NCBI GenBank assembly: GCA_947643595.1
Contig: CANRWP010000023.1
Span: 1-48,373, forward strand
Direction of reading: 5' to 3'
Length of the DNA: 48,373 nucleotides
Source of the DNA: an uncultured bacterium
GTDB lineage: Bacteria; Bacillota; Clostridia; Lachnospirales; Lachnospiraceae
Numbering within the stretch: position 1 is the stretch's first letter; each line of letters opens with the position of its first letter. A program made the position numbers and the translations under genes. The notes beneath the pieces were generated by a model. It ran no database searches, had not been told where the DNA came from, and was given only the letters and a program-made list of their open reading frames with translations. Shown in pieces: positions 18,461 through 35,808 of this stretch.

Positions 18461-18570
18461 AAACAGCATACACCCCTACAGTGCACAAGACAATTTACAG
18501 ACGCTGGGCGGCTGTAAATTAGTCTTCGGTATCGGTGTACTGGGAGGGTGTATGCGGTACTGGAATAGGA
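18461..18570 (+). ncRNA. Structured RNA leader upstream of pduL (motif copy A)
   Basis: Three nested stems: GCATACACCC (18466-18475) with GGGTGTATGC (18546-18555); CAGTGCAC (18479-18486) with GTGTACTG (18535-18542); and AAGACAATTTACAG (18487-18500) with 18512-18526 with one bulge. An outer AGTACT (18452-18457) may also pair with GGTACT (18556-18561). The 3' part (GTGTACTGGGAGG, then GCGGTACTGGAATAGGAG) is nearly repeated at 35769-35807, upstream of the ABC transporter. There is no U-run, so it is not a simple terminator. A regulatory or processing RNA is inferred; I do not recognise a named family. Confidence 0.65.
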
Positions 18571-18578
18571 GTGTCAAA

Positions 18579-19232
18579 TTGGATACAAATAATGTAGAAC
18601 TGATTACAAAATTGGTGATTGAGGCCTTGAACAGGCAGGAAGCGGAGAAAAGTGAAAAAGGTTTTCTTGTTCCTGTAGGGGTATCCAACCGGCATGTTCA
18701 TCTGACACAGGAGCATGTGGAGACATTATTCGGAGAAGGTTACCATCTGACAAAGAAAAAGGATCTGATGGGCGGACAGTTTGCGTCGAACGAGCTGGTG
18801 ACGATCGTGGGATTAAAGCTGCGCGCCATTGAGAATGTCAGGATCCTTGGCCCTTGCCGCAGCAAGAGCCAGGTGGAGATATCTGCGACGGATGCAAGAA
18901 CGCTGGGCATCAAGGCGCCGATCCGGGAATCCGGCAATGTGGCAGGCAGCGCGCCGATCGCGCTGGTGGGACCGAAAGGGGTGCTGTATCTGAATGAGGG
19001 CTGTATCGTGGCGCAGCGCCATATACATATGTCCCCGGCGGATTCGGCGGCGTCCGGCTGCAAGGATGGCGATATCGTGTCGGTGGTTGCAGATAACGAG
19101 AGAGGAACGGTTTTCCATCATGTGAAGATCCGTGTAAATGAGGCGTTTACGCTGGAAATGCATATCGATACGGACGAAGCGAACGCGAGCAGGATCGCGC
19201 AGGGTGATACGGTGAGAATCATCAAAGGATAG
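18579..19232 (+). CDS. pduL: Phosphate propanoyltransferase PduL
   Basis: Converts propionyl-CoA to propionyl phosphate, regenerating CoA inside the shell. TTG 18579 is chosen because AGGAG lies seven bases upstream; an ATG at 18552 lies inside the leader hairpin without a ribosome site. Residues 2-18 (DTNNVELITKLVIEALN) form an encapsulation helix. The two PduL domains carry the zinc motifs VGVSNRHVHLTQEH and CIVAQRHIHMSPADS. The length of 217 is normal. No propionate kinase gene is seen in the window. Confidence 0.93.
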   Translation: MDTNNVELITKLVIEALNRQEAEKSEKGFLVPVGVSNRHVHLTQEHVETLFGEGYHLTKKKDLMGGQFASNELVTIVGLKLRAIENVRILGPCRSKSQVEISATDARTLGIKAPIRESGNVAGSAPIALVGPKGVLYLNEGCIVAQRHIHMSPADSAASGCKDGDIVSVVADNERGTVFHHVKIRVNEAFTLEMHIDTDEANASRIAQGDTVRIIKG

Positions 19233-19255
19233 AGAAGGTTATAGAATAAAAATCC

Positions 19256-19292
19256 GCAGTCTTTCTCCGGAAAATACCGGAGAGGGATCTGC
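19256..19292 (+). promoter_or_regulatory. Hairpin between pduL and the pentamer gene
   Basis: CTCCGG (19265-19270) pairs with CCGGAG (19277-19282) over AAAATA. The stem extends outward with wobble pairs to GCAG (19256-19259) and CTGC (19289-19292), with one bulged T. No T-run follows. It is another intercistronic structure in this operon. Confidence 0.55.
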
Positions 19293-19309
19293 AGAGCGAG
19301 GGCTTGTCT

Positions 19310-19576
19310 ATGATAGCGGCAAAAGTGGTGGGAAGTATTGTTTCCACAAGAAAAAGTGAAAATTTGATCGGAAATAAATTTATGATCGTTGAGCCGGTGG
19401 AACGGATGAAGGGACACATGAATCAGTTTGTGGCGATCGACAATATAGGAGCCGGTATCGGAGAATATGTTCTGGTTGCCCAGGGGAGCGCAGCGAGGAT
19501 CGGATGCGGTCTGGACAGTGCACCTGTGGATGCGGCGATTGTCGGTATTATTGATGATGCCAGCGGACTGGTATGA
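19310..19576 (+). CDS. pduN: EutN/CcmL-family pentameric vertex protein
   Basis: 88 residues. The family opening (MIAAKVVGSIVSTRKSENL), then FMIVEPV, VAIDNIGAGIGEYVLVAQGS and PVDAAIVGIIDD are the pentamer strands. Five copies close each vertex of the icosahedral shell. ATG 19310 has GAGGG seven bases upstream; an in-frame TTG six bases earlier is too close to that site. It lies between PduL and PduS, as in many pdu-type loci. Confidence 0.95.
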   Translation: MIAAKVVGSIVSTRKSENLIGNKFMIVEPVERMKGHMNQFVAIDNIGAGIGEYVLVAQGSAARIGCGLDSAPVDAAIVGIIDDASGLV

Positions 19577-19591
19577 TAGCCGGAGGAAACT

Positions 19592-20926
19592 ATGGGTTTA
19601 CAGGAATTAAAAGAACTGCTGCAAAAGAGCGGCATTGTGGGAGCCGGCGGAGCTGGATTTCCGACATACGCAAAACTGGATGAACGTGCGGAGACGATTC
19701 TTTTAAACTGCGCGGAATGCGAACCTTTGTTGAAGCTGCACAGGCAGCTTTTGAAGGAACATGCCTATGAGATCATGAAAACATTCAGCATGGTGGCGGA
19801 CACGGTTCATGTAGGCAGCGGTATTATCGGAATCAAAGGGGAATATAAGGAGACGATACAGGCCTTGAAGCAGCACATCGGAGAGTTTCCGAAGCTTTCG
19901 ATCAAGCTTTTGGACAGCGCCTATCCGATGGGGGACGAGGTCGTATTGATCTATGAGGCAACCGGCAAGGTGATAAGACCCGGCGGGCTGCCGATAGAGG
20001 CCGGCGTGGCGGTATTCAACGTGGAAACGATGTATAATATATACCGTGCGGTGGAATATGGAGCGCCTGTCACAGATAAAGTAGTGTCCGTCGTGGGGGA
20101 GGTGGAACATCCGCTCTCCGTCAGAGTTCCCATCGGGTGCAGAGTGGAGGATGTGGTAGCGCTGGCAGGGAATGTCACGACGAAGGAACCGGTGTATTTT
20201 ATCGGCGGTCCGATGATGGGATTCATCGGGGACGCGGATATGCCTGTGACGAAGACGACTAACGCAGTCATCGTACTGCCGAAAGATCATCAGATCGTAC
20301 AGCGGAAAAAGAGCAAGGCATCCCTGGAGTTAAAGCGGGCGGCTTCCTCCTGCTGCCAGTGTGAGACCTGTACGAATCTCTGTCCGAGACATGCGCTGGG
20401 GCATCCGATCGAGCCGCATCTGTTTATGCGTTCGGCGGCAAACCAGGACTTCCAGCACATCGAGGCGTTTCTCAACACTTCGTTCTGCAGTTCCTGCGGC
20501 GTGTGTGAGATGTATGCCTGTCCTCAGGGGCTGGCGCCGAGGAGTCTGATCGCGGAGTGCAAGGACGGTCTGAAAAAGGCTGGAGTGAGACCGCCGGCGG
20601 ATGTGAAACCCGCGCCGGTGAAGAGATCGAGGGAATATCGCAAGGTGCCGGAGATGCGCCTGGAGGCGAGACTGGGACTTTCTAGATACAATGTACCTGC
20701 CCCTCTGCAGGATCAGGTGGTGGATATGCCGAATGTGACGGTGAAAATGAGCCAGCATATCGGCGCGCCTGCGGTTTTTGCGGTGAAGGTTGGAGACATC
20801 GTGAAGATCGGGGATGTTGTGGGGAATCCGGGCAAAGGGTTGAGCGTGGCGATCCACGCACCGATAAGCGGAAAAGTGATATCGGCGGATAACGGCGCAG
20901 TGACGATTCAGAGGGGAAGAGACTGA
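19592..20926 (+). CDS. pduS: PduS-like Rnf C-type flavoprotein/iron-sulfur protein
   Basis: 444 residues related to RnfC. The N-terminal GIVGAGGAGFPTYAKL and LNCAECEPLLKLH bind NADH and FMN; a SLBB-type domain follows. Two [4Fe-4S] sites are seen: CCQCETCTNLCPRH near residue 252 and CSSCGVCEMYACPQG near residue 298. In cobalamin-type compartments PduS is a cobalamin reductase. Here the dehydratase is B12-free, so electron transfer through the shell with the PduT cluster, perhaps for NADH recycling or activase reduction, is the inferred role. Confidence 0.92.
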   Translation: MGLQELKELLQKSGIVGAGGAGFPTYAKLDERAETILLNCAECEPLLKLHRQLLKEHAYEIMKTFSMVADTVHVGSGIIGIKGEYKETIQALKQHIGEFPKLSIKLLDSAYPMGDEVVLIYEATGKVIRPGGLPIEAGVAVFNVETMYNIYRAVEYGAPVTDKVVSVVGEVEHPLSVRVPIGCRVEDVVALAGNVTTKEPVYFIGGPMMGFIGDADMPVTKTTNAVIVLPKDHQIVQRKKSKASLELKRAASSCCQCETCTNLCPRHALGHPIEPHLFMRSAANQDFQHIEAFLNTSFCSSCGVCEMYACPQGLAPRSLIAECKDGLKKAGVRPPADVKPAPVKRSREYRKVPEMRLEARLGLSRYNVPAPLQDQVVDMPNVTVKMSQHIGAPAVFAVKVGDIVKIGDVVGNPGKGLSVAIHAPISGKVISADNGAVTIQRGRD

Positions 20927-20969
20927 AAAAAGTCTGCGGTGAGACTTGAGAAGCGTGGAGGATATGGAT

Positions 20970-21518
20970 ATGAGCAGAGCAATTGGAATGATTGAGTTTA
21001 AGACGGTTTCTTCCGGCGTGGTTGCGACAGATAACATGGTAAAGACTTCCGATGTGGAGTTGATCGAGGCGGAGACAGTCTGCCCGGGAAAGTATATAGC
21101 CATTATAGCGGGGGATCTGAGCGCGGTGGATGCGGCGGTGAAAAATGCGACATCGCAGTACAGCGAAAATCTGATCGACAGTTTTGTGCTGGGTAATCCC
21201 CATGAATCCATCTTTCCGGCCATCTACGGGACGACACATCTGGAGAAGGTGAGAGCGCTCGGCATTCTGGAGACTTTTGACGCGGCGGCGATCATTCAGG
21301 CGGCGGATGTGGCGGCGAAGACGGCTATCGTGGATCTGATCGAACTGCGTATTGCGAAGGGGATGTGCGGAAAATCTTATATGTTTCTGACCGGCGAGGT
21401 GGCGGCGGTGGAAGCGGCCATCGAGAGAGCCATTGCGGAGGTGGGACCGAAAGGGCTGTATCTGGATTCGTCGGTTATCGCACAGCCGGATGAGCAGGTC
21501 TGTAAGTCGGTGCTTTAA
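20970..21518 (+). CDS. pduT: PduT-like tandem-BMC trimer with Fe-S pore cysteine
   Basis: 182 residues with two BMC domains (AIGMIEFKTVSSGVVATDNM and ALGILETFDAAAIIQAADVA). Cys38 in AETVCPGKYI is at the position that holds the pore [4Fe-4S] cluster in known PduT. ATG 20970 is preferred, with GGAGG eight bases upstream; ATG 20964 is too close. It follows pduS by 43 bases; the two proteins interact in known systems, supporting an electron conduit across the shell. Confidence 0.93.
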   Translation: MSRAIGMIEFKTVSSGVVATDNMVKTSDVELIEAETVCPGKYIAIIAGDLSAVDAAVKNATSQYSENLIDSFVLGNPHESIFPAIYGTTHLEKVRALGILETFDAAAIIQAADVAAKTAIVDLIELRIAKGMCGKSYMFLTGEVAAVEAAIERAIAEVGPKGLYLDSSVIAQPDEQVCKSVL

Positions 21519-21534
21519 TGGGGGATGAGGGCGT

Positions 21535-22302
21535 ATGCTTGCACTGGAACGACGGAATTTAATACTGGAGAAGCTGCAGGAAGAGAAGCGGGTGGTGGTC
21601 AGCGAGCTGAGCCAGCTGTACGGGGTGTCGGAGGAGACGATCCGCAGGGATCTGGATAAGCTGGATAAGGACGGTCTGGCGGTGAAAAGCTACGGCGGTG
21701 CCGTGATCAATGAGAACACCAGCATCGATATGCCCTTTAATGTCCGGAAGAAAAAGAATGTGGCGGGGAAGCAGAAGATTGCTGAGCTGATCGCGGAGAT
21801 GATACAGGACGGAGATCACATTGCCATAGATGCTTCGACCACCAGCGTTTTTATCGCGAAGGCGATCAGACAGAAAGAGCGGATCACCCTTGTCACCAAT
21901 TCGATCGAGATCATAATCGAGCTTGCGGATGTCAGCGACTGGGATATTATCTCTTCCGGCGGAAGATTGAAGGAAGGCTATCTGGCGTTGGTGGGGGCTA
22001 AGGCGATCGAGGCGCTTGACTCCTACAATGTGGAGATCGCCATCGTCTCCGGGAAAGGCTTTGATCTGGAGCGGGGGCTTACGGACAGCAATGAGGAGTT
22101 TGCCCAGCCGAAACGTATTATGATGAAATCGGCAAAGCACAGGATCGTAGCGGTGGATAAGACAAAATTTGGAAAGATCGCGTTTTCCCAGATTGCCGGT
22201 TTGTCCGAGATGGATATCGTGGTGACGGATGAGAAGCCAGGTGATGAGTGGCTGGAAAGATTTAAACAGATGGGAGTACGATGCTATTATCCGGGACGAT
22301 AG
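21535..22302 (+). CDS. DeoR-family transcription regulator
   Basis: 255 residues. The N-terminal helix-turn-helix (VVVSELSQLYGVSEETIRRD) and the following YGGAV are the DeoR signature. The C-terminal sugar-phosphate sensor domain has IDASTTSVFIAKAI, LVTNSIEIIIELA and SSGGRLKEGYLALVG. It closes the compartment operon, 16 bases after pduT, with a terminator behind it. DeoR proteins usually repress and are released by a phosphorylated sugar, so L-rhamnulose-1-phosphate or a related ester is a plausible effector. The A-rich elements at 8661 and 12973 are candidate sites. Confidence 0.93.
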   Translation: MLALERRNLILEKLQEEKRVVVSELSQLYGVSEETIRRDLDKLDKDGLAVKSYGGAVINENTSIDMPFNVRKKKNVAGKQKIAELIAEMIQDGDHIAIDASTTSVFIAKAIRQKERITLVTNSIEIIIELADVSDWDIISSGGRLKEGYLALVGAKAIEALDSYNVEIAIVSGKGFDLERGLTDSNEEFAQPKRIMMKSAKHRIVAVDKTKFGKIAFSQIAGLSEMDIVVTDEKPGDEWLERFKQMGVRCYYPGR

Positions 22303-22313
22303 AATAGGTATAG

Positions 22314-22349
22314 ATGGGGAGACCCTGGTTTTCAGGGGCTCCCCATTTT
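22314..22349 (+). terminator. Terminator of the microcompartment operon
   Basis: ATGGGGAG-A-CCCTG (22314-22327) pairs with CAGGG-G-CTCCCCAT (22333-22346) over a GTTTT loop region and is followed by TTT. It sits 12 bases after the DeoR stop. Confidence 0.85.
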
Positions 22350-22361
22350 GAATGGAGGGAT

Positions 22362-23318
22362 TTATCTGAGGCATTGTTCCACTATGTTCATGACGAGCAG
22401 ACTGTGTTTCAGCATTTTGCGGCATGCGTCCCTGTCCTGTTCCCTGTATTGTCTTACAAATTCCTTCACTTCCCCGGTCAGCTTTCCGTTGTCCGGTGTT
22501 TCCAGAATACAGCGCTCCTCGCCGCCTGACGATAAAAAGACTTTCGTGGCGGAGCTGGCGGGACCTTCCAGCCGGAGATATCCTTTTTCTCCCTGGAGAA
22601 CGACGCCGCTGGGACTGGTGGAGTCTTTCGCACCGGTGCAGACAGCGTGAAAGCCGTCATACTCCAGAACCGCGGTTCCGGAGATATCGACACCGTTAGA
22701 ACCGTAATTGGCGTAGTAGTGGACTGCTTTCGGCGCGCCGAAGAGAGCTGCTGTCAGGTGCAGGTTGTATATGTTGATATCGTAGAGACTTCCGCCCGCC
22801 TTTTCGGGGTCAAACGCCGGATGCAGTATTCCGTTTTGGAAATCCGTGTAGCGGCTGGATTTTCTGGAGTAATTGCATCGGACCACTCTCAGCGCTCCGA
22901 TGAGAGGCAGTTGCTCTCTCAGGGTTTTAAAAGTGGGAGAGTAGGGAATCTTGCATGCTTCCCACAAAAACAATCCTCTCTTTTCTGCCAGATCAGCTAA
23001 CTCTCCGGTCTCGGAAGGATTTACGGTGAACGGCTTTTCACAGATGACGTTTTTCCCCGCCTCCAGAGCCTGCTTCGCGTAAAGATAGTGTATGTGATTG
23101 GGAATACCCAAATATACCGTATCGATGGAAGGTTCCAGCAAAGCGGCGGAATAATCGGTGAAAAGCAAAGGAATCAGGTATTTTTCAGACAACACGGCTC
23201 CTTTCTCCCTGCTCGCTTCCCTCACGCAGATGGCGGTGAGCCTTGCATCTTCTATGGACTGAACATCTTCCAGAAATCGTTTGACAATATTTCCGTTGCC
23301 GACAACACAAATATTCAT
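22362..23318 (-). CDS. Gfo/Idh/MocA-family oxidoreductase
   Basis: 318 residues. The N-terminal MNICVVGNGNIVKRFLEDV is an NAD(P)-binding Rossmann motif; VYLGIPNHIHYLYAKQALEAGKNVICEKPF contains the conserved EKP lysine; GGSLYDINIYNLHL matches the catalytic GG..DxG..Y region in part. Such enzymes oxidise or reduce hydroxyls of sugars, inositols or their derivatives. It stands alone on the minus strand, with GAGAGGAG before the ATG, divergent from the flagellin. Its specific substrate cannot be read; the neighbouring deoxysugar genes make a sugar plausible. Confidence 0.9.
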   Translation of the reverse strand: MNICVVGNGNIVKRFLEDVQSIEDARLTAICVREASREKGAVLSEKYLIPLLFTDYSAALLEPSIDTVYLGIPNHIHYLYAKQALEAGKNVICEKPFTVNPSETGELADLAEKRGLFLWEACKIPYSPTFKTLREQLPLIGALRVVRCNYSRKSSRYTDFQNGILHPAFDPEKAGGSLYDINIYNLHLTAALFGAPKAVHYYANYGSNGVDISGTAVLEYDGFHAVCTGAKDSTSPSGVVLQGEKGYLRLEGPASSATKVFLSSGGEERCILETPDNGKLTGEVKEFVRQYREQDRDACRKMLKHSLLVMNIVEQCLR

Positions 23319-23368
23319 ATTGTTTTACTCCTCTCCATTATTTTATTTATTTTAACCTGAATCGGGAG

Positions 23369-23409
23369 TCGGTTCAAGCGCAGACTATGGAAAAAACTTA
23401 ATGAACCGA
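23369..23409. promoter_or_regulatory. Inverted repeat in the divergent oxidoreductase/flagellin intergenic region
   Basis: TCGGTTCA (23369-23376) is perfectly complementary to TGAACCGA (23402-23409), 25 bases apart. A related half-site, TGAATCG, lies at about 23358. The arrangement could bind a dimeric regulator that controls one or both divergent genes. No canonical motility-sigma promoter was found. Confidence 0.45.
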
Positions 23410-23463
23410 TGATTTTTTCCAAAATATATGATATATTATATTTTATAAGGGGAGGGGAATCAT

Positions 23464-24867
23464 ATGGCGATGCGTATCAGAAGTCAGAGTGCCATGAATG
23501 GCAATCGACAGCTAAAGATAAATTCGGGAAATCAGAGAAAGACTGTTGAAAAACTATCCTCCGGTTTCCGTATCAACAGAGCGGCTGATGACGCCTCAGG
23601 GTTAGCGATTTCGGAGAAAATGCGCAGGCAGATAGGAGGGCTCACGCAGGGGGTCAGGAATGTACAGGATGGTGTTTCCCTCTGCCAGGTGGCGGATGCT
23701 GCGCTCACAGAAGTACATGATATGTTGAACAGAATAAGTGAGCTGAGCATCAAGGCGGCAAACGGAACCATGTCGAAGTCTGACAGACAGGCGGTGCAGG
23801 ACGAGGTGTCCATGCTTACCATGGAAATTTCCAGGATCGGCACTACGACCACGTTCAATGACATCCATATTTTTGACTATGCCAACGGAGAGTATATGAA
23901 GGAGACGTTGAATATGGACCTGATACGTTCTCCTTCCGCGCAAAAGGGATACCTGTCTGAGGCATATTACGAAAACGGATTGTACTATCCTTCCGCGTCC
24001 ATGGATTTCAGTGCCCTCACGGACGCCTCGAAGATCGCCAGACTGGCCGGGAAAAGTTTTTCTTTTACCTGCAGCCAATCCTGCCCGGAGGCATTTACCT
24101 TTACTTTTGTGAACAGGGACGGTCAGCAGAGCAGGTTTTTGAATCCGGAGTCGAAAGGGAACCGGGTGGAACACAGATATCAGATCGATCTGATGGGAAT
24201 CGAGACCGGGGAGGAACTGCTCAATACACTCTTTGACTTTGTGAATGAAAATCCGGCGACGGATGGCAAAGTGTCCGAAGACAGAGTGCATGTAAGCCAT
24301 TCCAATATATTGATCAAAAAAAGTAATAATATGCTGGTTTTGCGTGCCACGACATACGGCCAGGATACGGTGGAGAAAGTATTACAGCACTGTGAAGCCC
24401 GTTATAAGAACAGTCAGTACGGGCAGGCGGACTTTGCCGGAATCGCGAGCGCCTCGGACGAGCGGGTGACGAATGTATTGTCGATACATTACGGGGCGGA
24501 CGGAAAAGACAATATGGGACTTTATATCGAGAAAATGAATGCCGTGACACTGGGGCTTAACGACCTGAAGGTCACGTTGGTGGAAGAGTGTTACAGTGCT
24601 ATCAATAAGGCAAAAGAGGCCATGGAGGCTGTGAGCAGACAGAGAAGTCTGATCGGAGCGCAGCAAAACCGGCTGGAGAGCACCATAGACAATGAAAATA
24701 ATGTGATAGAGAACCTCACCGCTTCGGAGTCCAGGATCCGCGATGCGGATATGGCGAGAGAGGTGGTAAGGGAATCCACGCTGCACATTCTGGAGCAGGC
24801 GGGATATTCCGTACTGGCTCAGGCCAATCAGGAAAATCAGAGTGTGCTCGCCCTGTTTGGCGGGTAA
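23464..24867 (+). CDS. Flagellin
   Basis: 467 residues. The conserved N-terminal D0/D1 region (LSSGFRINRAADDASGLAIS, residues about 30-50, then GVRNVQDGVSLCQVADAAL) and the C-terminal region (ESRIRDADMAREVVREST, then ILEQAGYSVLAQANQ) are both typical. Residues about 150-370 are the variable surface domain. GGGGAGGGG precedes the ATG. It stands alone, with no flagellar assembly genes in the window, so the rest of the apparatus must be elsewhere or the gene is a spare or phase-type copy. The glycan genes at the left edge may include flagellin glycosylation functions, but this is only proximity. Confidence 0.93.
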   Translation: MAMRIRSQSAMNGNRQLKINSGNQRKTVEKLSSGFRINRAADDASGLAISEKMRRQIGGLTQGVRNVQDGVSLCQVADAALTEVHDMLNRISELSIKAANGTMSKSDRQAVQDEVSMLTMEISRIGTTTTFNDIHIFDYANGEYMKETLNMDLIRSPSAQKGYLSEAYYENGLYYPSASMDFSALTDASKIARLAGKSFSFTCSQSCPEAFTFTFVNRDGQQSRFLNPESKGNRVEHRYQIDLMGIETGEELLNTLFDFVNENPATDGKVSEDRVHVSHSNILIKKSNNMLVLRATTYGQDTVEKVLQHCEARYKNSQYGQADFAGIASASDERVTNVLSIHYGADGKDNMGLYIEKMNAVTLGLNDLKVTLVEECYSAINKAKEAMEAVSRQRSLIGAQQNRLESTIDNENNVIENLTASESRIRDADMAREVVRESTLHILEQAGYSVLAQANQENQSVLALFGG

Positions 24868-24876
24868 TGGTGACAG

Positions 24877-24910
24877 TAAAGACGGGCTCAGATTAAGAAG
24901 CCCGTCTTTA
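24877..24910. terminator. Bidirectional terminator between flagellin and HAD phosphatase
   Basis: TAAAGACGGGCT (24877-24888) pairs perfectly with AGCCCGTCTTTA (24899-24910) over ten bases, giving T-ends on both strands. It covers the last codons and stop of the convergent HAD gene. Confidence 0.8.
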
Positions 24911-25697
24911 ACATATTCTCGATAAATTCCATGACCGAAGGCGTGGTGTAATCGCACAGTTCCCTGATGGCGGGGCGGGCGCTCTCCACAGCCACGCTGA
25001 CGCCGCTGGCCTTGAACATTTCTACATCGTTGTAGTTGTCGCCGAAGGATAGGATATCCTCCCGGCGGATGCCCAGATGATCGGAGAGGGCTTTGATGCC
25101 CACACCCTTGTGTGCGCCGGGAAACAGGAAATCAAGCCAGACAGTGCCGGAAGTCACCACTTTGACATCGTGAGGGAAGACTTCGGAACGCGCAAACTGG
25201 CTCTGCCAGTAAGGCTGTCGGTTTCGTTCCTCCGTGCCTTCCTTCTCAAAGAGCGCCAGCTTGATGATGGGTTCGCCGATGTCGGTCAGATCCGGTACGA
25301 CCTGATACTGATTTCCCATGTTTTTTATGTATTGTTCGAACAGCGGTTCCTTCGGATGAATATAGCAGGTGAAAGCGCCGGATACCAGAACCTCCGTGCC
25401 CGGTTCCGCCTCCAGACGGCGGATGATGGATACGGCAGTTTCCAGAGGGATATCCACTTTGTGCAGGAGCTGTCCCTGATAGACGCTCAGAGCTCCGTTT
25501 TCACAGATATAGGCAATCTCATCCTTTACCTCGTGGAAAAGACGCCGCAGATTATGGTATTGTCTGCCGCTGGCCGCCGCAAAGATGATGCCGCGTTTTT
25601 TCAATTCTCTGACGACTTCCGGGAAACCCTCCGGGAGGTCTGCCATATTGCCTGACACAAGAGTGCCGTCCAGATCACTGGCAATCAATTTTATCAT
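24888..25697 (-). CDS. Cof-type HAD-IIB phosphatase
   Basis: 269 residues. LIASDLDGTLVSGNM is the nucleophile motif (DxDGT); AAASGRQYHNLRRLF is motif II; and ILSFGDNYNDVEMFKASGVSVAV is the GDxxND motif of the type IIB cap class. These enzymes dephosphorylate sugar phosphates or cofactors such as FMN and PLP. The ATG overlaps the stop of the AraC gene by four bases, so the two form an operon. A link to rhamnose phosphate homeostasis is possible but not shown. Confidence 0.93.
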   Translation of the reverse strand: MIKLIASDLDGTLVSGNMADLPEGFPEVVRELKKRGIIFAAASGRQYHNLRRLFHEVKDEIAYICENGALSVYQGQLLHKVDIPLETAVSIIRRLEAEPGTEVLVSGAFTCYIHPKEPLFEQYIKNMGNQYQVVPDLTDIGEPIIKLALFEKEGTEERNRQPYWQSQFARSEVFPHDVKVVTSGTVWLDFLFPGAHKGVGIKALSDHLGIRREDILSFGDNYNDVEMFKASGVSVAVESARPAIRELCDYTTPSVMEFIENMLKTGFLI

Positions 25698-26671
25698 GTT
25701 TTTTCCCTCTTTTCCTCCAATCGGTACGCCCTCGGCGTCATGCCGAAATGTTCTTTGAAGATCCGGTGAAAATAGCTGGTATTGTCATACCCCACCAGCG
25801 TGATGATATTTTCCACGGGGAGCCTCGTGGTGGTCAGCAGAAACGCCGCCTGGTTAAGCCGTTTTATCTGCAGCAGGGTTTTGAACGTATGCCCGGCGTG
25901 CCGCTTGATCAGCTTGCTGATATAATAGTCCGGCCGGCCGGTCAGGGCAGCGAGCTCCTCCAGGGCGCCGGTTTTGTAGTTGTCCTCGATATATTTGAGC
26001 GCTGTGAAGATCAGGTTCTGCTCATACTGTGCGGGATCGTTTTTATTGATCTTGTCACTCTGATTCTGGAGCAGGATAAACAAAAGCCCCATGGTGGTCT
26101 GGTTGATGTTGCGGAAATTTTTTTGCTTTGTCACCAGGGAATAGATCATATTTTCAATCAGATTCTGGATCGGCAGTTCGTCTTTCACCTGAAAGTGCAG
26201 ATAATCCACAAGACCGCTCTCCTCCTTCAGGGATCCCACGAGAAAATCGTGGAGTATGCTCTCCTCCTCCATCATCAGAAACGCCCGGTCAAAAAACTCG
26301 GGCAGTACGATAAAGTTGACAGCAATGTCATCTTCTCCGGCGGGCAGGATCTCCTGGGTGGCGTTCTGGTTCAAAAAGAGCAGCTCGCCGGTCTCCAGTT
26401 TCACCGTGTTGTGCCCGCCTATGATATGGGTCGTGGAACCGCTGCACATATAGATGATCTCCACATAGTTGTGCCTGTGGACAGGGAAGTGGATGAACCT
26501 TGTGTGGGGGCGGATATCGATCAGCTTTCCCTTCTCCAGCATCTTGTCGCTGTCCACGATAAAATCCGATTTGGTGGTGTAGAGATCCTTCTGCACATTT
26601 TTGCTGCCGTCCAGGATCGCCTGTTCTTCCTTTGAGACGGGTCTCAGTTTTTCCAAAAGTTCAGGATTCAT
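25694..26671 (-). CDS. AraC-family regulator with N-terminal cupin
   Basis: 325 residues. The N-terminal ligand domain has FPVHRHNYVEIIYMCSGS and LETGELLFLNQ, typical of an AraC cupin. The C-terminal two-HTH domain has LEELAALTGRPDYYISKLIK and VGYDNTSYFHRIFKEHFGMTPRAYR. The ATG follows AGGAAAGG. It lies 1.1 kb from rhaB, whose upstream region bears a two-site direct repeat of the kind AraC/RhaS activators use, so it is the likely rhamnose-responsive activator. YesN at 34051 is a second AraC-type candidate. Confidence 0.93.
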   Translation of the reverse strand: MNPELLEKLRPVSKEEQAILDGSKNVQKDLYTTKSDFIVDSDKMLEKGKLIDIRPHTRFIHFPVHRHNYVEIIYMCSGSTTHIIGGHNTVKLETGELLFLNQNATQEILPAGEDDIAVNFIVLPEFFDRAFLMMEEESILHDFLVGSLKEESGLVDYLHFQVKDELPIQNLIENMIYSLVTKQKNFRNINQTTMGLLFILLQNQSDKINKNDPAQYEQNLIFTALKYIEDNYKTGALEELAALTGRPDYYISKLIKRHAGHTFKTLLQIKRLNQAAFLLTTTRLPVENIITLVGYDNTSYFHRIFKEHFGMTPRAYRLEEKREKT

Positions 26672-27777: not shown

Positions 27778-27833
27778 AGACGGTAAATTTTGCAAATAAA
27801 GTCCTGTTTTAAAAGGCAGAGATAAGTTATACT
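27768..27833 (+). promoter_or_regulatory. Putative AraC-type activator site and rhaB promoter
   Basis: TTGCAAATAAAG occurs at 27768-27779 and again at 27790-27801, in direct orientation 22 bases apart (about two helical turns). A good -10, TATACT (27828-27833), lies downstream, but the -35 position (27805-27810, TGTTTT) is poor. Tandem half-sites abutting a weak -35 are typical of AraC/RhaS-activated promoters. Confidence 0.65.
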
Positions 27834-27887
27834 TCATAATAAAGAGGGAAGAAAAGCGCAGGCGGGCGCGGAAATGAGGGACTGATT

Positions 27888-29291: not shown

Positions 29292-29324
29292 TAAATAAAC
29301 AAGCAAAAACAGGAGGGAACACAA

Positions 29325-30581
29325 ATGGCAAAAAACTATGCAGCAGCCAAAGAAGCTTACGCGGCTTACGGCGTAGACACGGACAAGGCGATCGAGACTT
29401 TGAAGAAGGTACCGGTATCTCTTCACTGCTGGCAGGGGGACGATGTGATCGGCTTCGACCATGACGGTCCGCTGACCGGCGGCATCCAGACTACAGGCAA
29501 CTATCCCGGAAAGGCAAAGACACCGGAAGAGCTGTTTGCGGATATGGACAAAGTGCTGTCCCTCTGCCCGGGCGCAAAGAAGATCAACGTCCATGCCTGC
29601 TACGCGATCTTTGAGGAGGACGGTTTTGTGGACCGCGACAAGATCGAGCCGAGGCATTTCAAAAAATGGGTGGAGTTTGCGAAGGAGAGAAACATGGGAC
29701 TTGACTTCAATCCGACTTTCTTCTCCCATCCGAAGGTAAAGGACGGCCTGACACTGTCGAGCCCCGACGAGGAGACCAGAAACTTCTGGATCGAGCACGG
29801 CAGGGCATGTATCCGCATCTCCCAGTACTTTGCGGAGGAGACAGGAATCCCCTGCGTGATGAACATCTGGACCGGCGACGGCTTCAAGGATGTCCCGGCA
29901 GACAGAATGGGACCGAGAATGCGCTACAAAGAGTCCATCGAAGCGATCCTCTCCGAGCCCTACGATTTCGACAAGGTAAAACCCTGCGTGGAATCCAAGG
30001 TATTCGGTATCGGTGTGGAGGCATACACGGCGGGCTCCGCTGAGTTCGCGCTGAGCTTTGCGGCGGCGCACAAGGACAAATGCCTGCCTTTGATGGACAA
30101 CGGTCACTATCATCCGACGGAGGTTGTCTCCGACAAGATCCCTGCGCTGCTTTGCTTCTTCCCGGAGCTGGCTCTGCATGTGACGAGAGGCATTCGCTGG
30201 GACAGCGACCATGTGGTAGTGCTGGACGACGAGACGAAGGAGATCGCGAAAGAGATTGTGAGAAACGACGCGCTGGATCGTGTCTACATCGCGCTGGATT
30301 ACTTCGATGCGGCGATCAACCGTGTCTCCGCATGGACGACCGGTTTCCGGAGTATGCAGAAAGCGCTTCTGATCGCGCTGTTGACGCCCAATGCGATGTT
30401 AAAGGAATTGCAGGATAAGTCACAGTTCACGAAGCTGATGGCGATGCACGAGGCGGTAAAATGCCTGCCGTTCGGGGAAGTCTGGGAGCGGTACTGCGAG
30501 GAGTGCGGCGTGAAGGGCGAGAACGAGTGGTTTGAAGAGATCGAGAAGTATGAGGCGGAAGTGCAGTCCAGGAGAGCATAG
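29325..30581 (+). CDS. rhaA: L-rhamnose isomerase RhaA
   Basis: 418 residues, the usual length. It interconverts L-rhamnose and L-rhamnulose using two divalent metals. Characteristic segments are VSLHCWQGDDVIGFD, GGIQTTGNYPGKA, LDFNPTFFSHPKV, MDNGHYHPTEVVSDKI and GIRWDSDHVVVLDDE, which carry the metal-binding Glu, Asp and His residues. AGGAGG precedes ATG 29325. It ends the rhaBA operon, which is closed by a strong terminator. No rhamnose mutarotase (RhaM) is nearby. Confidence 0.97.
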   Translation: MAKNYAAAKEAYAAYGVDTDKAIETLKKVPVSLHCWQGDDVIGFDHDGPLTGGIQTTGNYPGKAKTPEELFADMDKVLSLCPGAKKINVHACYAIFEEDGFVDRDKIEPRHFKKWVEFAKERNMGLDFNPTFFSHPKVKDGLTLSSPDEETRNFWIEHGRACIRISQYFAEETGIPCVMNIWTGDGFKDVPADRMGPRMRYKESIEAILSEPYDFDKVKPCVESKVFGIGVEAYTAGSAEFALSFAAAHKDKCLPLMDNGHYHPTEVVSDKIPALLCFFPELALHVTRGIRWDSDHVVVLDDETKEIAKEIVRNDALDRVYIALDYFDAAINRVSAWTTGFRSMQKALLIALLTPNAMLKELQDKSQFTKLMAMHEAVKCLPFGEVWERYCEECGVKGENEWFEEIEKYEAEVQSRRA

Positions 30582-30596
30582 AGAAAAATAGTTGGC

Positions 30597-30645
30597 CCGG
30601 GCACCGGATTTCTTTTACAGGGAAATCCGGTGCCCGGCTTTTTTT
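30597..30645 (+). terminator. Strong intrinsic terminator after rhaA
   Basis: CCGGGCACCGGATTTC (30597-30612) pairs perfectly over 16 bases with GAAATCCGGTGCCCGG (30622-30637), followed by CTTTTTTT. Confidence 0.95.
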
Positions 30646-30729
30646 GGTAGTTTAATTTGACATTTACATTGAAAATTTTGTCATTTTCCACTAAAATAGA
30701 GGAAAACAGGACAAATGAGGGCGGACAGA

Positions 30730-32214
30730 ATGAAGATAGGATTTGATCATGAAAAGTATGTAAAAATACAGTCCCAGCATATCCGGGATCGGATAGCGCA
30801 GTTCGGGGACAAGCTGTATCTGGAGTTTGGCGGCAAGCTCTTTGACGACTACCATGCGTCGCGTGTGCTGCCGGGCTTTATGCCGGATGCAAAGTTAAAA
30901 ATGTTGATGGAGCTCTCCGATATGGCGGAGATCGTTTTAGTCATCAGCGCGACGGATATCGAGAAGAACAAGGTGCGGGGGGATCTGGGGATCACCTACG
31001 ATGTGGATGTGCTGCGTCTGATCGGAGAGTTTGAACGGCGGGGGCTTTTGGTGAGCAGCGTGGTGATCACGCATTTCAGCGGGCAGGCGGGCGCGGTCCA
31101 GTTTAAAAACCGGCTGGAAAAAAAGAATATCTGCGTCTATATGCATTACATGATAGAGGGATACCCCTCTAACGTTGGGCTGATCGTCAGCGAGGAGGGA
31201 TTCGGGCAGAACGACTATATCGAAACGACGCGCCCCCTGGTGGTCGTGACGGCCCCCGGACCGGGCAGCGGAAAGATGGCGACCTGTCTCTCCCAGCTCT
31301 ATCACGACAGCCTGCGGGGGATCAAGGCGGGTTATGCGAAATTCGAGACGTTCCCGATCTGGAATCTGCCGCTGAAGCATCCTGTCAATCTCGCCTACGA
31401 GGCGGCTACAGCCGATCTGAACGATATCAATATGATCGATCCGTTCCATCTGGAGGCCTATGGGGAGACGACCGTGAACTATAACCGGGATATCGAGATA
31501 TTCCCGGTGCTCAGCGCGATCTTCGAGGGGATCTACGGGGAGTGCATCTATAAATCGCCTACGGATATGGGCGTCAACATGGTGGGAAACTGTATTGTGG
31601 ACGATGGGGCGTGCAGGCAGGCTTCCTGCATGGAGATCATTCGGCGCTACTATACGGCGGCGGGGAAAGTGGTGAAGGAGGAGGCCTCTGAGAACGAGAT
31701 CTACAAGATAGAGCTTCTGATGAAGCAGGCGAAGATCACGACGGCCGACAGAAGGGTGACGGTTGCCGCAAAAAAGAGAGTGGAGGAGACGGGACTGCCG
31801 GCCGCTGCGATCGAACTGCCGGACGGCCATATTATCACCTCAAAAACTTCGGATTTTCTGGGGGCGTCGGCGGCGCTTTTGCTGAACGCTCTGAAATTTC
31901 TGGCGGGCATCGGCCACGATGTGAAGCTGATCAGCCCGGAGGCCATCGAGCCGATACAGGAATTGAAAGTGAAGTATCTGGGAGGCAGAAATCCGCGCCT
32001 CCACACGGACGAAGTGCTGATCGCGCTGTCCCTCGCAGCCACCGGCGACAAAAATGCCCGCGCCGCTTTGGAGCAGCTTCCGAATTTAAAGGACTGTCAG
32101 GTACATACTTCCGTGATGCTCTCGGAGGTGGATATCAAGACCTTTAAACGGCTGGGAGTGGATCTCACCTGCGAACCGGTGATCAGCAAAAAGAAACTGA
32201 CGGAGAAGATATAG
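30730..32214 (+). CDS. DUF1846 family protein
   Basis: 494 residues of a conserved protein family of unknown function found across Firmicutes and Actinobacteria. Signature segments are IGFDHEKYVKIQSQHI, LYLEFGGKLFDDYHASRVLPGF, TAPGPGSGKMATCLSQLYHD (P-loop-like, GPGSGK) and KSPTDMGVNMVGNCIVDD. The GPGSGK stretch suggests nucleotide or phosphate binding. ATG 30730 is preferred, with GAGGG nine bases upstream; an ATG at 30715 has none. A TTGACA (30657-30662) upstream may be a -35 box, but its -10 is unclear. It lies between rhaA and the two-component genes, probably as its own unit. Confidence 0.92.
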   Translation: MKIGFDHEKYVKIQSQHIRDRIAQFGDKLYLEFGGKLFDDYHASRVLPGFMPDAKLKMLMELSDMAEIVLVISATDIEKNKVRGDLGITYDVDVLRLIGEFERRGLLVSSVVITHFSGQAGAVQFKNRLEKKNICVYMHYMIEGYPSNVGLIVSEEGFGQNDYIETTRPLVVVTAPGPGSGKMATCLSQLYHDSLRGIKAGYAKFETFPIWNLPLKHPVNLAYEAATADLNDINMIDPFHLEAYGETTVNYNRDIEIFPVLSAIFEGIYGECIYKSPTDMGVNMVGNCIVDDGACRQASCMEIIRRYYTAAGKVVKEEASENEIYKIELLMKQAKITTADRRVTVAAKKRVEETGLPAAAIELPDGHIITSKTSDFLGASAALLLNALKFLAGIGHDVKLISPEAIEPIQELKVKYLGGRNPRLHTDEVLIALSLAATGDKNARAALEQLPNLKDCQVHTSVMLSEVDIKTFKRLGVDLTCEPVISKKKLTEKI

Positions 32215-32227
32215 GGAGATAATGACT

Positions 32228-34054
32228 CTATTTCCGCACATACTCCACCGCCGGAAGCCTTACCTGCACTTCGGTTCCGCGTCCCGGCGTGCTCTCGTAA
32301 CAAAGCCCGTACTCCCTGCCGTACAGAAGCTGAAGCCGCAGGTGGGTATTATAGATACCGATATTGCTGCCCTTGCCGTCCTCGTAGGTGCCATCCAGGA
32401 TAAAGGGCAGTTTTTCCGGCAAAATGCCGACGCCGTCGTCGGATACCACGAAGATGATATCCGCCCCGTCCATCCATGCCATGATGACGATGGTTCCCTT
32501 CTTGGAGTCTTTCTCGAAAATGCCGTGCTGAATGGAATTTTCCACGATGGGCTGCAGGATCAGTTTGGGTATCTCAAAATCCAGAATCTCATCCGGGACA
32601 TCGATCAGGAAGGAGATCGTGTCCTCGTATCTCATGTTTTGCAGTTTCACGTACAGTTCCACATGACGGAGTTCTTCCCTGATCGAAGTGGTGATATTTT
32701 TTTTGGAGAGGGTCAGCTTGTAAAATTTGGAGAGGGTCTGCACCGCCAGAGAGACCTCCCTCTGCTTGCCGCTCTGGGCGAGCCAGTTGATCATATCCAG
32801 CATGTTGTAGAGGAAATGAGGATTGATCTGGGCCTGCAGGGCCCGCACCTCGGAGACCTTTAATTTCTCGGCGGTCTCGGTCTGTTCCTCGATCAGCTGA
32901 TTGATGCGGCCCACCATGGCGTTATAGTTGAAGACCAGCTGGCCGATCTCGTCCTTGTCGGAGTTGTCCTGGAAGGGGACAAGGTTTTTCTCCCGGTTCT
33001 GGTTGATCTTTTCCACCACAAGGGAGAGACGTTTGGCGAGACTGCCGGACAGCAGGAGGGCGGTGACGCAGGCCAGAGCCACGAAGAGCAGATAGAGCAC
33101 CGCGGTGTTGAGAAGTACCTGCTGCCCCTCGGAGAAGACGCTGTTTACGGGGATGACGGACACGAGACGCCAGTCTGTCTGGTCGATCTCCCGGTATCCC
33201 ATGTACAGCTTTTCGTCAAGGATCGTGGTGGTGGCAAAATTCTTCGTGCTGCCCACCGCTTCCGGGATGGACTCGTAGCGCTTGAAATAGGTGCCGGCAA
33301 GACTCTTGTCGGAGGAGGCGATGACGGAATTTCTGCTGTTGATCAAATAGTAGACGCTGCCCGTGCTGGTCAGGTTTCGATGTAGCATATCTTCCAGATG
33401 GCTCTCCGAAAAATAGATGGCGATATAACTGCATTCCCCGTTGGGGTTGGCGAGATTGGTAAATTTCTGTATGTAGGCCAGGGAACCATACCTGTCGATC
33501 TCTTCCGTTGTCAGATAAAAGGAGGGGCAGAGCAGAGAAATACTGTCCGGCTGTCCGTCAAAAATACCGTGCCAGTAGCTTCCGGAAACTTCGTCGACGG
33601 AGGAGATGACGCCGGAAAAAGAGGGGGAAGAAAAGTCGATATCCCTGTCTGTGGGAATATAGATTTTTATTGCCGTAATAAATTCATGATCGATCAGAGA
33701 GTTGATATTGCTGAAAAATTCCAGAGCCCGCAGGCTGTTCTGCTTGTCGTAGAGATAGCCGTAGACATCCGGTGTGTAGGTGGCCTCGGAGAGAAACGGG
33801 TTGGAAGTAATGCTGTCCATGGACAGGCGCAGCTGACTGATGGTGGCTTCCAGCGTGTCCGCTGTCTGGCTGACTAACGCCTGTTCCGACTCGATGGTGT
33901 TGTCCGTGATAATATGGGAGAGACGCCCGTACAGAAAGACAAAGACCACCAGTGTGGGGACAAGGACGAGGATCAGGTGGGTGATCATGAACTTGTTTTT
34001 AAATTTCATATCGTGCAGAAAATAGTGCACGGCGGAGGGATGTTTTTTCTTCAT
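32228..34054 (-). CDS. YesM-type sensor histidine kinase
   Basis: 608 residues. A first membrane segment (residues about 20-42), a roughly 250-residue extracellular Cache-like region, a second segment (LLNTAVLYLLFVALACVTAL), a HAMP linker, then the His_kinase domain with LQAQINPHFLYNMLDMINWL (phosphorylated His) and an ATPase end with SDDGVGILP and GIGIYNTHLRLQLLYG. YesM/YesN pairs usually sense extracellular sugars or binding proteins and activate the adjacent importer. The ATG overlaps the response regulator stop by four bases, so regulator and kinase are one operon. The ABC importer is divergent from it. Confidence 0.94.
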   Translation of the reverse strand: MKKKHPSAVHYFLHDMKFKNKFMITHLILVLVPTLVVFVFLYGRLSHIITDNTIESEQALVSQTADTLEATISQLRLSMDSITSNPFLSEATYTPDVYGYLYDKQNSLRALEFFSNINSLIDHEFITAIKIYIPTDRDIDFSSPSFSGVISSVDEVSGSYWHGIFDGQPDSISLLCPSFYLTTEEIDRYGSLAYIQKFTNLANPNGECSYIAIYFSESHLEDMLHRNLTSTGSVYYLINSRNSVIASSDKSLAGTYFKRYESIPEAVGSTKNFATTTILDEKLYMGYREIDQTDWRLVSVIPVNSVFSEGQQVLLNTAVLYLLFVALACVTALLLSGSLAKRLSLVVEKINQNREKNLVPFQDNSDKDEIGQLVFNYNAMVGRINQLIEEQTETAEKLKVSEVRALQAQINPHFLYNMLDMINWLAQSGKQREVSLAVQTLSKFYKLTLSKKNITTSIREELRHVELYVKLQNMRYEDTISFLIDVPDEILDFEIPKLILQPIVENSIQHGIFEKDSKKGTIVIMAWMDGADIIFVVSDDGVGILPEKLPFILDGTYEDGKGSNIGIYNTHLRLQLLYGREYGLCYESTPGRGTEVQVRLPAVEYVRK

Positions 34055-35619
34055 GTTAAGCCTTCCTGTTCCCGGTATTCGGAGGGAGACATTCCCACTT
34101 GTTTTTTGAACGTTTTTCCGAAATAATTGCCGTCGCTGTAGCCGACGCGGGCGGAGATATCGGTGATCTTGTATCTGGGATCGGTCAGCAGTTTTTTTGC
34201 CTTGTCGATCCTGAAATCCGTCAGATACTGGTTTAACGTCTGCCCGGTCTCATTTTTGAAGAGCGTACAGACGTAGGAGGATGAGAGAAAAACATGCTCG
34301 CTGATATCCTTGATGGAGAGTGTTTCATCCTGGTAATGGCCGGCTATAAATTCCTTGATCAGATAGACGGTGGAAGAGTTCTCGCTCCGGTTTTGAATCT
34401 GGGAGAAAAACTGCTCCGTCTTCTGTGTCAGCAATTCCTGCAGCTCATAGATGGATTCACATTCGGAAATATATCCCCAGAGGCTGTCCCCGGGTTCCTT
34501 CGCGGACGGGAGGACAAGGTTTAATATTTCGCAGGTATCGTTTATCAGCATAAAGAGTTTGTAGTACAGATCTTTCGCCTGGTTCGGAAGGACATTTTGG
34601 GGAGGCATCAGCTCCCGAAACAGTTCTTCCAGGAGAAGTTCGGTCTGTTTCTGGTCTTTGCGGAGAAGTGTCTCGGAGAGACGGCTGTCCATCTTCAGCG
34701 TACTCACATCAAAAAAGGTATCGTAAATCTCCCGGTGTTCGTAGATCCGGTAAGTGTTGTATTTCTGGAAGAAAGAATTCTGCAGTTCGATGACGGCGGA
34801 ATTGTAGGAGTCGTGAATGTGGAGAGCCCCTTTTACGTTTTTCCCGAAAATAATATGGTAGTGCAGGGAAAGGGGGGAGAGGGCCTGCTCCAGCAGACGA
34901 CCGAGGTTGTTTTTCCGGTTTGCCGTGTAATCGGAATGCCCCCAGACATGGTAAAAGTACAAAAGCCCCTGCCTGGTGGAATGGATCTCTTTCAGGTGAA
35001 GACCGTCGAGCACCTGGGACACGACAGGTTCCAGGATGGCAGTCAGAGCGTCCTGACTGTATGTATTGTGGTGAAACTGGATCAAAAAGGTGAAAAAGAC
35101 AGTCTCCTCGTCCCGGGGAAAATCAAAGTCCAGATCCTCGGAGAGAAACGAGGAGGCCTCCCCCTTGGGCGCGTAGGCGAGCCTTGAGGCGAGGGCGGCG
35201 CGGGAGCGGGCCAGGGAGAGCGCCTTGGAGGAGGCGGCTTTTCTGCCGGCTTCCACAGCGGCTTTTGCCTCCAGCACCGTATCGGAGATCTCTTCCAGAT
35301 CGATGGGTTTCTCCACATAACTCACGGCTTTCAGTTTGATGGCCGCCTTTAAATATTCTTTGTCGGAATAACCGCTCATAAAAATGATGCTGAGAGCCGG
35401 GTTGGTCAGCTGTAATTTTTCCGCCATCTCGATACCGCTCATATGGGGCATCCGCACATCGCTCAGAATAATGTCAGGCCGGAAAGTCAGTGCGGTCTCG
35501 TAGCCGTGCAGGCCGTCGTCGGCCTGCGCGACAGCGCTGATACCCAGTGATTTCCAGTCAATACTGTTCATCAGACCGTCTCTTGTCAGTTTTTCGTCAT
35601 CCACGATCAGCAGTTTCAT
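34051..35619 (-). CDS. YesN-type response regulator with AraC output domain
   Basis: 522 residues from the ATG at 35619, which has GGAGGTGA five bases upstream; an upstream in-frame ATG has no such site. The receiver (MKLLIVDDEKLTRDGLMNSI; phosphoacceptor Asp54 in ILSDVRMP; VSYVEKPIDLEE) is followed by a long linker region and a C-terminal AraC HTH pair (LSIKDISEHVFLSSSYVCTL, ITDISARVGYSDGNYFGKTF). It is expected to activate the divergent sugar ABC transporter promoter, whose -35 is weak. The stop overlaps the start of the kinase. Confidence 0.95.
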   Translation of the reverse strand: MKLLIVDDEKLTRDGLMNSIDWKSLGISAVAQADDGLHGYETALTFRPDIILSDVRMPHMSGIEMAEKLQLTNPALSIIFMSGYSDKEYLKAAIKLKAVSYVEKPIDLEEISDTVLEAKAAVEAGRKAASSKALSLARSRAALASRLAYAPKGEASSFLSEDLDFDFPRDEETVFFTFLIQFHHNTYSQDALTAILEPVVSQVLDGLHLKEIHSTRQGLLYFYHVWGHSDYTANRKNNLGRLLEQALSPLSLHYHIIFGKNVKGALHIHDSYNSAVIELQNSFFQKYNTYRIYEHREIYDTFFDVSTLKMDSRLSETLLRKDQKQTELLLEELFRELMPPQNVLPNQAKDLYYKLFMLINDTCEILNLVLPSAKEPGDSLWGYISECESIYELQELLTQKTEQFFSQIQNRSENSSTVYLIKEFIAGHYQDETLSIKDISEHVFLSSSYVCTLFKNETGQTLNQYLTDFRIDKAKKLLTDPRYKITDISARVGYSDGNYFGKTFKKQVGMSPSEYREQEGLT

Positions 35620-35708
35620 AGTCACCTCCGCCATGGATTTATTGTAGCATGGGGAGGAAAAAAAGAAAATGATTTTACCCAAAATCAAAAAAAAGTACGA
35701 TGGCGCGG

Positions 35709-35729
35709 GAAATTTTCCGATGCTATACT
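35709..35729 (+). promoter_or_regulatory. Candidate promoter of the ABC importer operon
   Basis: TATACT (35724-35729) is a good -10, but nothing like TTGACA is found 17 bases upstream. A small palindrome, GGAAATTTTCC (35708-35718), fills the spacer. A weak -35 fits an activator-dependent promoter (YesN), but the site is only inferred. Confidence 0.5.
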
Positions 35730-35747
35730 TAAAACAACAAAGAATTT

Positions 35748-35808
35748 AAAACAGCAGAGATCCGCAGCCGTGTACTGGGAGGATCTCTGCGGAACTGGAA
35801 TGGAGGAG
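35748..35808 (+). ncRNA. Structured RNA leader upstream of the ABC importer (motif copy B)
   Basis: GCAGAGATCC (35754-35763) pairs perfectly with GGATCTCTGC (35781-35790). The loop contains CAG (35765-35767) and GTGTACTGGGA, with CAG/CTG able to pair inside. An alternative pairing of CCGCAG (35762-35767) with CTGCGG (35787-35792) excludes the main stem. The flanks (AAACAGCA before, GCGGAACTGGAATGGAGG after) match copy A at 18462-18570, while the stem sequence differs but stays complementary. That covariation supports a real RNA structure; its function is unknown. Confidence 0.65.

Follow-up and report, generated by a model that had tools for sequence, protein, structure and literature searches.

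We analyzed a window of 48,373 nucleotides (nt), that is, the whole of contig CANRWP010000023.1, positions 1 to 48,373 of the forward strand (GenBank assembly GCA_947643595.1), from an uncultured bacterium of the Lachnospiraceae. Two similar structured RNA leaders lie on its plus strand. Copy A (18461 to 18566) is found between a bacterial microcompartment (BMC) shell gene and pduL, which encodes a phosphate propanoyltransferase (18579 to 19232, plus strand; Pfam PF06130, 9.2e-75). Copy B (35749 to 35801) precedes the gene for the ATPase of an ABC sugar importer (35815 to 37335, plus strand; Pfam ABC_tran, 2e-52), which is followed by two BPD_transp_2 permeases. An earlier note, made from the sequence of the window, had interpreted these leaders as a regulatory RNA linking sugar import to the compartment pathway. 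As detailed below, they are instead two members of a large family of dispersed hairpins, which can reach tens of copies in the genomes of some gut Lachnospiraceae and nearly always end at the ribosome-binding sites of unrelated genes.

The two leaders are where the earlier note had placed them, and they have a GTGTACTGGGAGG core in common, which occurs in exact form only at 18535 to 18547 and 35770 to 35782, the other 15 matches in the window having 3 mismatches each. Copy A is a full-length unit, or long form, identified by its fold and by its match to the family model R1 described below. In its outer stem, the 5' arm GCATACACCC (18466 to 18475; consensus columns 6 to 15 of our genus alignment A1) is complementary throughout to the 3' arm GGGTGTATGC (18546 to 18555), with compensatory changes across the family. 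The middle stem pairs AGTGCAC (18480 to 18486) with GTGTACT (18535 to 18541), corresponding to consensus columns 20 to 26 and 77 to 83, and encloses an apical hairpin (18488 to 18525; consensus columns 28 to 66). Copy B, recognized by its R1 match and sequence, is a short form in which this apical hairpin is missing, and its predicted closing stem consists of GCAGAGATCC (35754 to 35763) and GGATCTCTGC (35781 to 35790), again complementary throughout. Two features claimed for the pair are thus borne out: the closing stems differ in sequence yet each is fully paired, and a long extra hairpin in copy A stands where copy B has a short loop. The predicted fold of copy A reaches -49.8 kcal/mol (z -6.6), with 0 of 200 shuffles equally good, and that of copy B -20.8 kcal/mol (z -3.0), with 1 of 200 equally good. 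The 3' motif that the copies were said to share needs correction: the tails are GGTACTGGAATAGGAG in copy A and GGAACTGGAATGGAGG in copy B. A Shine-Dalgarno sequence directly adjoins both copies, as had been noticed, and also units family-wide: AGGAG (18567 to 18571) abuts copy A ahead of the pduL TTG start at 18579, and GGAGG (35802 to 35806) follows copy B ahead of a TTG start at 35815.

Copies A and B are not a pair. A third copy in the same genome, found by a loose pattern, precedes a DUF4349 gene, and BLASTN with copy A returned 8 own-genome matches at E ≤ 0.1. The same query matched seven of nine genus genomes, with up to 56 matches each, many of them head to tail, and found no element in the congeners G003 and G007. 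The 3' end CGGNACTGGAATAGGAG, with at most 2 mismatches, has 21 occurrences in the genome of the window versus 4 for the reversed pattern. We aligned 38 full units from the genus (alignment A1) and built model R1 from them. In the window, R1 scores copy A, itself one of the 38 sequences from which it was built, at 117.3 bits (E 2.8e-36), and copy B at 41 bits (E 5.4e-11). When the best 19 candidates in the own genome were scored, R1 gave 14 matches corresponding to 13 units, one match being the antisense of copy A. Each of eight other genomes has 23 to 121 matches, with the best 150 candidates per genome scored and antisense matches still included; this set overlaps that of the congeners, G208 being G001 and G213 being G004.

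Each unit starts with AAACAG, ends with ACTnnAAT, and forms one long three-part hairpin of ~106 nt, the inner part of which is lost in short forms of roughly 25 to 60 nt. The consensus hairpin comprises three stems and 31 pairs, 19 of which are compensated within the genus. R1 found 96 matches in 80 loci from named genomes (some antisense and short matches are among these rows). In these 96 matches, every one of the 31 pairs has changed on both sides somewhere, and 91.4% of the alignment cells are paired versus 35 to 47% with slid partners as a control, in alignments that were fitted to R1 and hence are biased towards its pairs. The prediction that a covariance model would find homologues with strong base-pair covariation therefore proved right. 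Next, we compared G-U with A-C pairs, which a strand-neutral hairpin should contain in equal numbers. After removal of antisense, short, and near-duplicate rows, the ratio was 107:28 in one set (70 units) and 89:9 in another (55 units); before antisense removal, the first count was 108:36. This G-U excess points to the sense strand as the one under selection, most simply in the form of RNA, and judging from these sequences the units behave as if the sense RNA were selected for pairing.

The strand bias bears on the possibility that the units are DNA-level palindromes, serving a single-strand transposase of the REP/RAYT type or recombination, with no role as RNA. Hairpin repeats like these are characteristic of REP and related families, and at least one unit (L120, 4636 to 4736) is a nearly perfect palindrome from end to end, as though one of its arms were a copy of the other. 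However, the G-U excess and the fixed orientation relative to genes indicate the sense strand, with which single-stranded DNA of that strand is also compatible. Moreover, the Y1 transposase (PF01797) was unmatched in the carriers G001 and G005 and matched in G007, in which BLASTN found no element, and there was no unit in the 12 Y1 loci fetched out of 25 matches listed. With no Y1 transposase association seen, mobility of the REP/RAYT type is unsupported, and we consider a purely DNA-level role very unlikely.

The position of the units relative to genes is highly regular. R1 has 130 matches in 80 loci, most of them chosen without reference to ribosome-site sequence (a few short own-genome units came via the 3'-end match). 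We kept 98 as sense, of which 15 are internal to tandem arrays and 83 were called terminal. Using as criterion a Shine-Dalgarno-like match within 32 nt and an open reading frame (ORF) of at least 50 codons, 71 of the 83 terminal ends run into a Shine-Dalgarno sequence and a start codon, compared to 0 of 83 when the opposite end and strand were used as a control. By reading, the remaining 12 are five missed tandem-internal units, two antisense units, one unit cut by a contig end, and four that fall outside the criteria. Similarly, in a set of 81 matches in the named loci to a pattern that contains AGGAGG, and was thus selected for it, an ORF starts 2 to 12 nt past this motif in 79; one of the two exceptions is at the end of its locus and the other has an ORF of 30 codons. 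The start codon is ATG in 61 of the 71 and in 69 of the 79 cases, respectively, and the TTG starts behind copies A and B, which the earlier note had pointed out, are a coincidence rather than part of the signal. The borders of the element are sharp, with conservation near 0 bits just before AAACAG (80 units) and just past the ribosome site (67 units), and few parts of it are as conserved as the segment that joins the hairpin to the ribosome site. The earlier note had named occurrence at random sites as a repeat element as the outcome that would refute it; what we found is indeed a repeat element, but its sites are ribosome-binding sites and hence nonrandom.

No such regularity was seen in the downstream genes. 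In the named genomes, 76 downstream proteins contain 117 Pfam families, the commonest of which (ABC_tran) is found in only 4 of the 76. In the own genome, 19 units precede clpX, galM, murB, fabG, purB, rfbB, and genes for a spermidine-type binding protein, thioredoxin, and transketolase, among others, the names being our reading of the translations without a database result. Since these genes share no function, co-regulation of one pathway is unsupported. In one locus of the collection (L141), a lysine riboswitch (1257 to 1482, 108 bits) lies ~80 nt upstream of two tandem units (1564 to 1769).

We weighed these results against the idea that the element is a metabolite riboswitch, or a dedicated leader, co-regulating the sugar importer and pduL. 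It was suggested by two structured, covarying leaders in one metabolic neighborhood and by an alternative CCGCAG/CTGCGG pairing in copy B. This pairing exists, but it uses the loop of the shortened unit and was seen only in copy B and in its twin in the sister species G001, where the importer leader is the same; we therefore rejected it as a switch. The homologues covary as anticipated, but instead of standing before sugar or BMC genes, tens of copies stand before genes of no shared function, and their length varies, down to mini-hairpins. In some congeners, units are missing both at the importer and at pduL. In agreement with the earlier note, which could match the leaders to no known riboswitch, copies A and B score below the Rfam gathering threshold everywhere, a relaxed E-value gave only matches far below gathering, and no Rfam family matches the element in 18 related loci. 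Finally, the predicted probability that the ribosome site is unpaired averages 0.64 over 53 units versus 0.53 with a shuffled hairpin. With the site thus predicted to be slightly more accessible, translation should be permitted and no general sequestering switch is predicted. On gene associations, absences in congeners, and Rfam, we rejected a riboswitch linking import to the compartment, and we give the riboswitch reading in general almost no credence.

We then examined orthologous sites. Thirteen genes were compared in up to nine congeners by R1 and by reading (the pduL loci by reading only). The set has gaps, in that some genes were not found in all genomes, G000 and G001 have nonorthologous pnp rows, and the pduL leader of G003 is unread. 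None of the 13 genes has a unit in every congener read, and the states include present, absent, shortened, tandem, and other subtype. Some units are confined to one congener, such as that of alaS (G006 only) or those of adk, rfbA, and gpsA (G002 only). At rnfA, G002, G005, G006, and G008 have a unit and G000, G001, G003, and G004 do not, while pnp units are found in G004, G005, and G006. At tkt, the units of G000, G001, and G004 are of the mini type, those of G002, G005, and G006 are long or arranged in tandem, and G003, G007, and G008 have none. The importer is preceded by a short unit in G000 and G001, by a mini form in G002 and G004, and by a long unit in G005 and G006; G008 has none there. 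At pduL, G000, G001, and G005 have related units, G006 has a different one, and by reading there is no hairpin unit in G002, G004, G007, and G008, although relic-like tails persist in G004 and in G008, which keeps a ACTGGAAT tail. States are also mixed at purB, rfbB, and trx, with mini units and possible relics. One clear shortening is at typA, where G000 has a full unit and its sister species G001 a short one without the inner hairpin. An internal deletion of this kind is one likely route to short forms, copy B among them. In clean pairs with and without a unit (alaS, rnfA, tkt, and typA), the unit follows the end of the upstream gene and directly precedes the sequence that reads AGGAG or GGAGG in the empty site. 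The flanks often show an ACTGGA-like direct repeat, which tandem growth explains too, and the outer arms are inverted repeats that vary between loci. A parent transposon, as expected if the units were miniature inverted-repeat transposable elements, was not found in a search that was not exhaustive.

This patchy distribution also bears on the alternative of a domesticated posttranscriptional regulon, in which the hairpin and the GCGGAACTGGAAT stretch beside the Shine-Dalgarno sequence would bind a shared RNA-binding protein or small RNA. The high conservation of this linker and the preservation of pairing by compensatory change are both in line with it, as is the presence of a CsrA gene in all nine congeners. 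However, these nine include G003 and G007, in which BLASTN found no element; presence in all nine makes CsrA uninformative as a candidate partner. In addition, GCGGAACTGGAAT in our judgement does not resemble the usual CsrA consensus, the targets have no common function, and the gene set varies between congeners, with 0 of 13 genes carrying a unit in every congener read. A regulon is therefore unlikely in our view.

Sequence comparisons between units are informative about how they come to occupy their sites. At rnfA, the G005 and G006 units are 0.84 identical, but they are only 0.62 to 0.68 identical to those of G002 and G008, which is no more than expected for units at different genes (mean identity 0.64, maximum 0.87, 256 pairs). 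At typA, the G000 and G004 units are 0.81 identical, versus 0.49 to 0.50 to the G006 unit. Unrelated subtypes at the same site imply either repeated arrival at one ribosome site or replacement of one unit by another. Near-identical dispersed copies, suggestive of a recent spread, are present in genome G214, where 21 units from 20 loci have a mean identity of 0.89 and 18 of the 21 have the stem TAATATCCC, the others being variants, some of them compensated. These loci come from the best-scoring of 121 matches, and the sample therefore leans to one subtype. One unit of another genome (L211, in G021) belongs to the G214 subtype, being up to 0.87 identical to G214 units and at most 0.68 identical to the other units fetched from its own genome, which are of different subtypes. 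This suggests, on sequence grounds, a transfer between genera.

Several smaller observations concern the extent and make-up of units. By eye, about half of the G214 copies (L358 to L377) share a 5' module upstream of the unit, CTTTACCCTTTAGTGCCGTCGCGCAGCGACTT and variants, ending in GTCGCGCAGCGACTT, so the mobile unit may be longer in this genome. Two of these loci (L369 and L372) have in common a palindrome further upstream, GAGGAACTTTCAT...ATGAAAGTTCCTC. In two arrays, upstream units (L040, 1611 to 1716; L035, 1397 to 1497) have mutually mismatched outer arms, as expected from recombination between units.

Taken together, these findings make it probable that the family is a small noncoding mobile hairpin repeat, lodged just 5' of ribosome-binding sites and kept paired as RNA. 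Directly observed were the family and its pairing, the place and orientation of its units, their patchy presence at orthologous sites, tandem arrays, one clear shortening, and, in one genome, a set of near-identical dispersed copies. According to this model, the repeat would be copied around the genome, presumably by transposition, and would then be enlarged in place by tandem duplication or shrunk. Units sit in sense orientation immediately 5' of the Shine-Dalgarno sequence of their host gene, so that the ribosome site of the gene follows the end of the element, and this site would be a target rather than only the place where insertions survive. Once co-transcribed, the unit should form a stable hairpin standing ~11 nt ahead of the ribosome site. 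In Gram-positive bacteria, hairpins at the 5' end of a messenger RNA (mRNA) can affect its stability or initiation. The transcribed hairpin would thus be expected to act on the mRNA, the most likely consequence being a modest change in mRNA stability and translation start of the host gene rather than ligand sensing. A bolder proposal, which we put forward tentatively and regard as possible but doubtful, is that of a mobile RNA-structured element specifically targeting ribosome-binding sites. In the manner of a portable 5' module, each insertion would place a preformed hairpin ahead of the Shine-Dalgarno sequence, downstream of the promoter or of the preceding gene, and so adjust mRNA stability and translation of the host gene. 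After insertion, compensatory changes would preserve the pairing of the element, and its movement may rely on a mechanism that acts at the RNA level or recognizes ribosome sites.

A number of observations weigh against a mobile repeat of this kind. There is no clear target-site duplication at the clean pairs with and without a unit, and no transposase could be linked to the element. Tandem neighbors are not always alike, with identities of 0.52 to 1.00 for 11 pairs versus a mean of 0.67 for other pairs. At tkt and the importer, most congeners read carry some form of the unit, which fits long retention as well as mobility, and the relic-like empty sites (pduL in G004 and G008, purB, and trx) mean that loss as well as gain has shaped the pattern. 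The apparent targeting of ribosome sites could be survivorship. Lastly, the ribosome site is not always open in the predicted folds, with values spanning 0.22 to 0.93 over the 53 units.

How widespread is the element? The exact 3' pattern occurs in at least 119 stretches of named genomes. Among the 80 of these 119 that were listed, the titles of carriers read Lachnospiraceae, Clostridia, Acetatifactor muris, Lachnoclostridium, [Clostridium] symbiosum, or plain "bacterium," and several carrier assemblies presumably come from mouse-gut collections. In a sample of the family, R1 matched 4 of 200 genomes (3 of 199 genera), including the genome of the window and one congener, and in a sample of the class 1 of 291, again that of the window. 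These surveys used stricter filters and scored only 19 and 13 candidates per genome, respectively, so weak members would escape them. A wide taxonomic spread was rejected on the few survey matches, although the exact-pattern scan reveals carriers in many more named assemblies, and the element looks confined to part of the Lachnospiraceae. As for viral carriage, there were 0 matches of the exact 3' pattern in viral contigs, a test limited to exact matches.

Elsewhere in the window, a sensor kinase and an AraC-type response regulator (32228 to 35688, minus strand; Pfam) are divergent from the importer and are more likely to be its regulators. Near this pair, a TATACT-like -10 element was seen by eye at 35724 to 35729. 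An Azaaromatic (yjdF) riboswitch aptamer is found at 44964 to 45083 on the plus strand (47 bits versus an Rfam gathering score of 45), and the next ORF of at least 80 residues on the same strand encodes a GNAT acetyltransferase (45404 to 45817).

A family that is found almost only before start codons, in a single orientation and with tens of copies in a genome, and that retains its pairing each time it moves, would amount to a natural experiment on the influence of 5' hairpins on gene expression. Congeners provide pairs with and without a unit at central genes such as alaS, adk, typA, tkt, and rnfA, which makes the effect of the hairpin on expression directly measurable. There is also a warning here that covarying leaders common to two genes need not be a riboswitch.

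The element, which matches no Rfam family, is apparently an undescribed dispersed structured repeat. No description of it was found in open-licence PubMed Central text, searched by words in titles and the openings of abstracts and in part among the best 10 to 15 of larger sets. Like small interspersed structured repeats, it has dispersed noncoding copies and insertion differences between relatives. REP/RAYT and related families are likewise palindromes outside genes, with copy numbers from tens to hundreds, and our element differs from them in that it is longer, lies at ribosome sites, and has no Y1 transposase association that we could see. Three published systems offer further parallels. The stem-loop families from a survey of 40 genomes by Cozzuto et al. 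(PMC2267715) are likewise repeated, mostly intergenic, and possibly RNA-acting, a likeness by description. Many sets of the TAACTGA heptamers of marine Beggiatoaceae (PMC4679880) lie in forward orientation shortly before start codons, their downstream functions show no pattern, and a translational role was proposed, all of which resembles our findings. However, they are 7-nt direct repeats mostly without an adjoining Shine-Dalgarno sequence, whereas here a covarying hairpin of ~106 nt precedes one. The nearest counterparts of the element in kind are small interspersed repeats, pneumococcal BOX among them. The BOX, RUP, and SPRITE repeats of Streptococcus pneumoniae (PMC3049150) are also short, dispersed, and strongly folded, BOX varies in length by tandem middle modules much as units grow in tandem here, and in both cases insertions differ between relatives and neighboring genes fall in no informative functional class. 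The likeness is one of description, and there is a marked difference. These repeats, the best-studied comparison, are over-represented between convergent genes, away from start codons, and BOX-gene distances decay gradually (PMC3049150), while here nearly every terminal unit is in sense orientation, with its end at the ribosome site of the gene that follows. Because of this fixed orientation and place (71 of 83 versus 0 of 83), we have not filed the element as BOX.

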